A stretch of DNA of 64,000 nt from the NCBI RefSeq assembly GCF_014803405.1, contig NZ_JACYFG010000051.1, forward strand, positions 1-64,000, read 5' to 3'. The notes beneath the pieces were generated by a model that ran no database searches, was not told the DNA's origin, and worked only from the letters and a program-made list of their open reading frames with translations. This document shows, piece after piece, positions 18,752 through 20,283 of the stretch. The stretch is from Pelagicoccus enzymogenes (GTDB lineage Bacteria; Verrucomicrobiota; Verrucomicrobiia; Opitutales; Opitutaceae). A program made the position numbers and the translations under genes. Positions within the stretch are counted from its first letter, which is position 1; every line of letters starts with the position of its first letter.

Positions 18752-18796
18752 TGGTAGGCCCGCTCGGACTCGAACCGAGGACCAATGGATTATGAG
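18752..18796 (-). other. 3' fragment of tRNA-Ile(CAU), probable att site
   Basis: On the minus strand this reads anticodon loop CTCATAA (CAT at 18792-18794), 3' anticodon strand TCCAT, a T arm with stem CTCGG/CCGAG around loop TTCGAGT, acceptor strand CGGGCCT, discriminator A and encoded CCA (18752-18754). The arrangement matches tRNA-Ile with the CAU (lysidine) anticodon more than elongator Met. The 5' half is missing: the bases before the loop are GCCAA instead of the ATGGA needed to pair with TCCAT, and no D arm follows. It is therefore a truncated tRNA copy next to an integrase gene, as left by site-specific integration into a tRNA 3' end. Confidence 0.8.
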
Positions 18797-18879
18797 TTGG
18801 CCGATTCGTTACAAGTTCCGTCTCTAGGTTTACAAGCCTTTCCAAGTGAAATGACTGTAAATCAAAAACTTAGGAGACG

Positions 18880-20283
18880 ATGGCCGCGAATATCGAAAAA
18901 ATCCAAAACAATCTTATTCAGGTTAATTTCGGAAATTCTAGTACAGAACTAGTACAGAATTTTTCGACGAAAGAGCCGAGAAAATCGGGAAAATCGAAGA
19001 AACCGACCAGATCCGCCACTGCTGAATCCGCCAGGTCCAAGTCGACTTTGGCATACTGGAAGTCCGCTGTTCGGCAGCGAAAGTACCGGCACAAGGGAGA
19101 GCTGCGGAAGTGTGCCGACTACTCGGTCCGGATCGCCCACGACGGAGAGCAGCACGACATTCCCCTGAAGATCTCCGATCGAGACAAGGCCGCTTCCAAG
19201 GCGAAGTCGATTTGGGAGTCGGTGGTCGCTAACGGCTGGGACCGGACGTTGATGGGGCTTGGGGTCAAGTCCAAGGGGGACGCCTTGACCTTCGGAGACT
19301 ATTTGGGCGAGTTTCTGAAGATGCCGGGCGTGGCTTTGATGACGGCGGAAGAGTATAGGAAGAAGGTCATTACTCTTATTGCGGAGGTAGTGGGCATCAA
19401 GCGTTCGCCGTCCGTCAAGGCGCCTCGGAAGGAATTGGAGAAATGGCGGCGGAAAGTGGAGAAGGTTAGGATTTGTTCGCTTTCGGACAGGCAGTTTATG
19501 AAATGGCGGGAATCGTGCCGCATGGCCTTGGAGAGAGGCGAGGTTTGCGGCCAAATCAAGCGCCGTCGATCCGCATCTACGATTAATGGGTTGATCAGAG
19601 CCTACAAGGCTGTGTTCCGAGCGGAGCAGTTGGAGAAGTTCGCTTATCTTGATCTTCCCGAAAAGATCCCCGGTACTACATTAAGGCTGCTTCGCGAGCC
19701 TTCGTACCGATACAAGGGAGGGATCGACGCTCAAGCTCTCTTGGACAAGGCGGACTCCGAGCTTCGGAAAGAAAATGTCGAGGCCTACAAGGTTCTTCTT
19801 CTGACGCTCGTCTGTGGTCTGAGAAGAACGGAGGCCGATTTGCTTCTTTGGAGCTCGGTCGATTTTTATCAAAACTGTATCCATGTTACGGCGACAGAGT
19901 ATTACGAGTTGAAGTCGAAGTCTTCCGAGGGCGTTACCTATTTCTCGGATGATGTATGCCGTTTCCTTCGGTACTGCTACGACAGGAGGACTGGAGAGTT
20001 CGTTTTGGAGTCGAAGCGTCCGCCTCTCAGGCACAAGGTGACCTACCAATATCACCGAGCGGAGAAGACTTACAGGGAGTTGATCGTCTGGCTAAGGTCA
20101 AATGGAGTGAAGTCTCGGAGTCCGATCCACTCGCTTCGCAAGGAGTTTGGTAGTCTGATAAATCAGAGCTACGGTATTCACACTGCTTCATCTGCGTTGA
20201 GGCATAGCACCGTAACCGTTACAGAGAGCCACTACATTTGCACTAAAGTAAAGCCAGTCGCGGGTCTGGAAATCCAAAGGTAA
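18880..20283 (+). CDS. Tyrosine recombinase / phage-type integrase
   Basis: 467 residues starting at ATG 18880 with AGGAG just upstream (TTAGGAGACGATG). The N-terminal ~70 residues are basic and Ser/Lys rich, followed by a core-binding domain and a C-terminal catalytic domain. Catalytic residues are visible: Arg in CGLRRTEAD (315/316), HSLRKEFG (His417, Arg420), LRHSTVTV (His442) and the nucleophile Tyr452 in TESHYIC. It should cut and rejoin DNA at the tRNA-Ile att site whose remnant lies 84 bases upstream. Inside its 5' end, TAGTACAGAAC is followed closely by TAGTACAGAAT (18935-18959), a possible arm-type binding repeat. No excisionase or replication gene is seen nearby. Confidence 0.88.
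   Translation: MAANIEKIQNNLIQVNFGNSSTELVQNFSTKEPRKSGKSKKPTRSATAESARSKSTLAYWKSAVRQRKYRHKGELRKCADYSVRIAHDGEQHDIPLKISDRDKAASKAKSIWESVVANGWDRTLMGLGVKSKGDALTFGDYLGEFLKMPGVALMTAEEYRKKVITLIAEVVGIKRSPSVKAPRKELEKWRRKVEKVRICSLSDRQFMKWRESCRMALERGEVCGQIKRRRSASTINGLIRAYKAVFRAEQLEKFAYLDLPEKIPGTTLRLLREPSYRYKGGIDAQALLDKADSELRKENVEAYKVLLLTLVCGLRRTEADLLLWSSVDFYQNCIHVTATEYYELKSKSSEGVTYFSDDVCRFLRYCYDRRTGEFVLESKRPPLRHKVTYQYHRAEKTYRELIVWLRSNGVKSRSPIHSLRKEFGSLINQSYGIHTASSALRHSTVTVTESHYICTKVKPVAGLEIQR

Follow-up and report, generated by a model that had tools for sequence, protein, structure and literature searches.

Our results indicate that the window, a stretch of 64,000 bp (C50:1-64000) from a 6.23-Mb draft genome of Pelagicoccus enzymogenes in 60 contigs (G000), carries the left part of a 103.3-kb genomic island that, judging from its sequence, was very probably inserted by a tyrosine recombinase into the one intact tRNA-Ile(CAU) gene that was found, at its anticodon loop. 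The island occupies C50:18752-122137 and measures 103,340 bp counted as a circle, of which the window contains the left 45,249 bp. This agrees with the earlier note on this DNA, which had proposed an element of at least 45 kb running past the right edge. The island is modular, with an exchangeable left sugar module and a right module of defence genes and a second integrase beside the intact tRNA. Gene labels (g1-g119) were assigned by a simple in-house gene caller, and the main features of the window are as follows.

18752-18797, minus strand: attL core, the displaced 3' half of tRNA-Ile(CAU), an exact 46-bp direct repeat of C50:122092-122137.
18880-20283, plus strand: Int1, a tyrosine recombinase (integrase) of 467 aa, Pfam Phage_integrase PF00589, E 7.3e-11.
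18938-18959, plus strand: CTAGTACAGAA x2, a putative arm-type site of the left end that lies within the Int1 frame; an identical right copy stands at C50:122007-122028.
21013-64000, no strand assigned: cargo, the left part of the sugar module (sulfatases, GH78, GH88, TonB plug, ECF sigma/FecR), from Pfam.

The complement of 18752-18797 corresponds to nucleotides 32-77 of a 77-nt tRNA-Ile(CAU), from the border of the anticodon stem and loop to the CCA end, and no 5' half of the tRNA lies beside it. This match bears out the earlier description of a tRNA 3' part, from the anticodon region to CCA, without its 5' half; the segment is 46 bases long, not 45 as had been stated. The complete tRNA-Ile(CAU) with a matching 3' end that had been predicted to the right was found at C50:122092-122168 on the minus strand, 58 kb past the right edge of the window and in the orientation of the core. 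ARAGORN and Rfam (gathering threshold) called nothing at 18752-18797, an expected outcome for half a tRNA. The intact gene was labelled Met(cat) by ARAGORN; CAT anticodons occurred in 3 of the 30 tRNA loci examined (out of 44 matches), with clearly different bodies, and we take this CAU tRNA to be the isoleucine one from features of its body. When a 47-base pattern was searched with up to 3 mismatches, it was found in exactly two places in 6.2 Mb, at the 18752 end and at C50:122092-122138, and a reversed control pattern gave 0 matches in the same genome, which excludes a chance match. The GC content inside the island was 0.54/0.53 against 0.59/0.57 in the flanks, a small difference.

Several further sequences were observed around the right end. 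An exact 23-bp 5' piece of the same tRNA-Ile lies at C50:122288-122310, about 120 bp past the intact gene; the DNA upstream of this piece is a diverged copy (76%) of the DNA upstream of tRNA-Ile, and an apparent decayed counterpart was seen by eye in G006. A palindrome, AAGTCGTTAATGATTAACGACTT, adjoins the tRNA 3' end at C50:122067-122089, just inside the right core; it is nearly kept in G001 and weaker in G006, and may be a terminator or a recombination site.

Int1 begins 82 bp from the tRNA repeat. The catalytically complete integrase described earlier beside the tRNA piece was recovered: in the alignment, it has R, H-x-x-R, (R)H and Y at the conserved positions. A second integrase, Int2, was located at the right end of the island (C50:120357-121679), reading towards the intact tRNA. 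Aligned with Int1 over 321 positions, Int2 shows 34% identity, and the alignment takes in the catalytic boxes; Int2 gave no integrase match in Pfam at E up to 0.01. The first H of its H-x-x-R box is Q in G000 and H in G001 and G006. The reading frames of both integrases are intact, and pairwise dN/dS values were 0.05-0.11 for Int1 and 0.12-0.22 for Int2, with dS above 1.4 in 4 of 6 pairs; for Int1 and its G006 copy dN/dS was 0.05-0.06 at dS above 1.5. No match to Int1 was found in a plasmid collection, and neither Int1 nor Int2 matched solved structures at E up to 0.01 and 0.1. A scan of a genome contig collection with Int1, from which records of its own genome were possibly excluded, returned two loci only, both in Pelagicoccus sp. 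SDUM812005. Another Int1-like gene of G000, at C60:204844-206126, is split into two overlapping frames, and no tRNA was called in the 20 kb examined there.

The 22-bp tandem repeat CTAGTACAGAACTAGTACAGAA was found just twice in the genome when up to 3 mismatches were allowed (18938-18959 and C50:122007-122028), 140 bp inside the left core and 63 bp inside the right core. Among 38 genomes, it was found only in G000, G001 and G006, in two copies each. Of 378 22-mers in the left 400 bp of the island, 12 overlapping ones, located around the repeat, recur in the right 400 bp, and a seed-filtered scan found a common 22-mer at up to 3 mismatches in 0 of 100 random 400-bp pairs. In lambda-type attP sites, the core is flanked on either side by arm sites, short direct repeats spaced by about one turn of the helix, to which the N-terminal domain of the integrase binds. 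The repeats of the island have the same placement, and their left copy differs in lying within the int frame, as it does in G000, G001, G006 and G007. The 22-bp repeats are probably arm sites of the integrase.

Integration would have moved the 3' half of the tRNA gene to the left edge (18752-18797), and the island would have brought an identical 3' half, so that a complete tRNA would be left at the right edge. Int1 is predicted to recombine the 46-bp core in the anticodon loop and, for integration as well as excision, to bind this core together with the paired 11-bp repeats of the two ends. In the excised circle, the order in one direction would be Int2, arm, core, arm and Int1, with attP between Int2 and Int1. 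A MobA/VirD2-like relaxase in the right part (C50:115033-116538), with a modest Pfam match (E 4.3e-7) and no match in NCBIfam, might conceivably allow helper-driven mobilisation. The HerA protein passes the Pfam cut-off for the TrwB coupling-protein domain, although the HerA defence model was far stronger, and no type IV secretion gene was found among the island genes covered by the Pfam scan (51 of 64 called). No relaxase was seen among the 10 right-part proteins of G006 scanned, four of which had no Pfam family.

Islands of the same plan occur in other members of the genus. Int1 relatives were found in 13 of 38 genomes, and among the eight genomes of the genus the tRNA half was present in two copies in G000, G001 and G006 and in one copy in the other five. 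G001 and G006, which are sister species, have the same ends at the same tRNA-Ile as G000. The G006 island spans 149 kb on one contig, with the arm repeats and an intact tRNA; its Int1 is 87% identical to that of G000, and its Int2-type integrase is 68% identical to Int2. In G001 the same two ends are located on two contigs, so their joining is inferred. In a third species, G007, an island of about 125 kb lies at tRNA-Phe(GAA) between 46-bp exact repeats. It carries an Int1-type integrase (46% identical) that groups with Int1 at 98/98 support, a second integrase adjoining the intact tRNA, and an arm repeat of differing sequence at both ends, the two copies being 92% alike over 25 bp. Counting the two-contig ends of G001, each of the four islands that could be mapped in the genus has an integrase at both ends. 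The G007 protein resembling Int2 forms a long branch, neither firmly joined to nor parted from Int2, in a tree that leaves out G022, G021, the third integrase of G012, the broken C60 copy and the G001 remnant. G007 also has a second, decayed tRNA end together with the neighbouring island-end sequence (87.5%) on the outer side of its displaced tRNA-Phe half (C6:2290826-2290873), a sign of an earlier stacked element.

Unoccupied sites were found in relatives, as the earlier note had proposed to check: in three genomes (G002, G003 and G007), the intact tRNA is next to genes of one or both G000 flanks, and no Int1-type integrase is present. In G003 its neighbours are the left-flank genes g12-g21, and in G002 they are the right-flank genes from g87 onward. 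G007 shows both flanks in part, with part of the left-flank gene g21 (75% identical), the tRNA and 104 bp matching the right flank of G000 (80%) within 0.7 kb and no island between them. Also present there, at a distance of about 100 bp from the intact gene, is a 24-bp relic of the 3' end of the tRNA (L102:9903-9926), so this site may once have been occupied. G004 and G005 have a single tRNA copy, and 31 flank and end proteins gave no match in the 20 kb examined. In G004, a 39-bp 5' half of tRNA-Ile was observed 8 kb from the intact gene (L100:17976-18014), and another kind of island may therefore use the same tRNA from its 5' side. Taken together, the locus has an intact tRNA at one end, the displaced 3' fragment in the same orientation at the other, a tyrosine integrase inside (Int1, by Pfam), and unoccupied counterparts in relatives (both flanks in part in G007, the left in G003, the right in G002).

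The cargo of G000 includes eight Pfam-supported sulfatases, four GH78 rhamnosidases, one GH88 enzyme and two DUF5722 proteins, together with an ECF sigma/FecR pair, a TonB plug protein, a LacI regulator and sugar transport proteins, and the sugar module extends to about C50:96300. The sulfated, rhamnose-containing sugars that the module would digest are probably of seaweed origin, and this enzyme set suggests ulvan or another sulfated rhamnan as the target. In the same slot of G006, the 10 proteins scanned included two GH2 enzymes, a sulfatase and proteins that have agarase-CBM and porphyranase domains. The right part of G000 encodes AbiEi/AbiEii, HerA-DUF4297, an SMC-like ATPase with a phosphoesterase, an ion channel and the MobA-like relaxase, and that of G006 encodes a type I restriction system and a zeta-toxin-like protein. 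The right part of G001 resembles that of G006, judged by eye from protein starts and order. In G000, one run (C50:107977-114123) comprises an SMC/Rad50-like ATPase, a phosphoesterase, a 511-aa protein with a weak SAP match only, and an ion channel. PADLOC matches to this run were weak or none, and it may be an undescribed defence system.

The left part of the island is nearly identical in G001. C50:18749-96656 and G001 C96:195747-273661 are 99.66% identical over 77,920 aligned positions, with 188 differences before 96300; the differences are patchy, and a full 2-kb step has between 0 and 41 of them. For two sampled backbone loci (4.2-4.6 kb), the identity of the same two genomes is 80.1% and 82.5%, and the much higher identity of the module argues for its recent transfer. 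The left limit of the identity lies 3-6 bp outside the core, and past this limit the two genomes differ. On the right, it ends in a g61-like stretch that is duplicated in G000; in G001 this stretch runs straight into a deleted second Int1-like gene. The sugar module thus appears to have been shared recently between species, next to a differing right neighbour. Since the stretch in common with G001 does not reach past about 96.3 kb, the full 103 kb was not transferred recently as one unit. With most of the cargo almost letter-for-letter the same in a different species, such gene sets appear to move between these bacteria as modules.

Elements with an integrase of Int1's type were also found in other genera. 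Single-integrase elements at tRNA-Asn measure 7, 15 and 21 kb in G023, G013 and G011, those of G009 and G017 lie on two contigs each, and G012b is an element of about 22 kb at tRNA-Leu. All six have matching arm repeats at both ends, with 0-3 mismatches. Overall, matching arm repeats occurred at both ends of 10 of the 11 elements of Int1's type with both ends mapped or sought; for the outer element of G012 the right end was not found, and only the left arm is known. In nine elements, the distance between an arm and the edge of the longest exact repeat is 130-159 bp at one end and 43-63 bp at the other; this exact repeat is only 34 bp in G009 and 38 bp in G017, where it extends past the tRNA end. 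In G012, 76 kb separate two integrases of Int1's type, and beside each stands a separate 3' half of tRNA-Leu; a third arm repeat was observed beside the intact tRNA-Leu, and the region (C1:1308279-1406000) is probably a tandem array.

The arrangement in G012 bears on an alternative in which the island of G000 is a fused tandem at one tRNA, consisting of a sugar element with Int1 and a defence element with Int2 whose inner junction was lost. The deleted Int1-like gene directly behind the same 78-kb module in G001 and the duplication of the g61-like stretch at the G000 joint are what such a history could leave behind, and G012 provides an example of two same-type integrases at such a spacing. 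However, no third copy of the core was found in C50:1-160000, and the genome contains two arm repeats only. A right-end integrase was found in 0 of 5 single-integrase elements searched (G009, G011, G013, G017 and G023; six right ends are known), and Int2 therefore cannot be read simply as a left-end integrase belonging to another element. The plan with an integrase at both ends is moreover common to all four islands of the genus, one of them at another tRNA. We therefore consider the fused tandem a tenable reading, but a somewhat doubtful one.

It seems unlikely that the island is immobile, with its integrases as relics, and that the module spread by homologous recombination, for example after natural transformation, between conserved Int1 and g61 regions. 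The near-identical stretch does end inside a g61-like copy, and the patchy differences along it would fit such exchange. Against this, Int1 and Int2 have kept intact frames and low dN/dS (dS being above 1.4 in most pairs), and the left identity stops at the att core, outside which the DNA of G000 and G001 differs. That the ends reflect a chance tRNA-like match or an assembly artefact is an idea to which we attach almost no weight: the genome is a draft of 60 contigs, but the same ends at the same tRNA appear in the assemblies of G001 and G006, and the plan is repeated in other genera. Insertion of a single modular island at tRNA-Ile(CAU) by a tyrosine recombinase is thus the reading that we prefer.

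Regularities of the Int1 type were also seen in a broader sample. In the first locus set, a period-11 repeat (at least 8 matches) was present near the integrase start in 13 of 19 loci; the remaining six comprise three Int2 loci with the repeat on the far (tRNA) side, and the G007 Int2, G011b and G022 loci without it. A survey of 150 genomes of the family gave matches in 32. The held-out test made on it used 19 loci new to the analysis, leaving aside at least five matches without a locus (G101:C139, G073:C21, G054:C29, G142 and G146), with a broader tRNA motif than in the first set and a repeat cut-off of at least 9 matches instead of 8. A tRNA 3'-end motif was found upstream, on the strand opposite to the integrase, in 19/19 loci; the controls gave 0/19 for the motif on the same strand and 0/19 in an equal downstream stretch, and no intact tRNA was called in the stretch. 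A period-11 tandem repeat with at least 9 matches was present in 14 of the 19 loci, compared with 0-3 for each of six other periods. The targets, assigned by eye, included CAU-type (Ile/Met), Asn, Phe, Lys-type, Leu and Ser-type tRNAs. We tentatively suggest, as a possibility short of an even chance, that the Int1-type integrase, widespread in the family containing Pelagicoccus, marks a distinct class of tRNA islands, with a tRNA 3' half, an 11-bp tandem arm site at the int start and a matching arm at the far end. In Pelagicoccus, such islands would have gained a second integrase, placing attP between two integrase genes in the circle, and would carry interchangeable algal-polysaccharide modules (of a sulfated-rhamnose or an agar/porphyran type) and defence genes, passed from species to species in modules of tens of kilobases. 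Int2 and Int1 would act jointly, or excision would bring them into one direction of transcription again and so switch Int1 expression.

The island offers a concrete, testable vehicle by which very large polysaccharide gene sets possibly reach new marine Verrucomicrobiota. In a third species (G006) this chassis has agarase/porphyranase cargo, which suggests niche change through the exchange of modules. For draft genomes, the att signature offers a way to locate islands of this sort and measure their length. Because the ends are known to the base, excision, circle formation and transfer are testable by PCR. Beyond the first reading of this DNA, what is new is the presence of a second integrase and of arm repeats, the modular build, and a module shared almost unchanged with another species.

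Integrative elements of Bacteroidota carry polysaccharide utilisation loci. The island described here likewise has mobile polysaccharide genes, and differs in belonging to another phylum and in the lack of type IV secretion genes among the 51 of 64 island genes scanned. No report on integrases of Pelagicoccus genomic islands appeared in the open-licence literature searched, where the one Pelagicoccus integrase paper was unrelated by its listing, and the titles and abstract openings of the open-licence papers listed held no match to the two-integrase layout or to arm sites in an int frame. The Islander database holds 2083 anticodon-centred islands among 3919 (PMC4383910). Its anticodon-loop islands share with ours a displaced 3' tRNA fragment, a regenerated tRNA, an integrase and a crossover in the anticodon loop, so that the layout, taken at sequence level, agrees with the Islander criteria for tRNA islands (PMC4383910); an integrase at each end, 11-bp tandem repeats (one in the int frame) and exchangeable polysaccharide cargo set the present island apart. 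CGI48 of Shewanella, at tRNA-Trp, is reported to be a composite island at a tRNA gene (PMC8978831); in the present case, four islands follow the two-integrase plan, and there is no inner att junction. Vibrio pathogenicity island-1 also has two different DNA-mobility genes and direct-repeat flanks, but uses a tmRNA site, has one mobility gene called a transposase, and carries unrelated cargo (PMC7574455). The island is thus a known kind of element in which the two-integrase layout and the arm repeat within the int frame are unusual.
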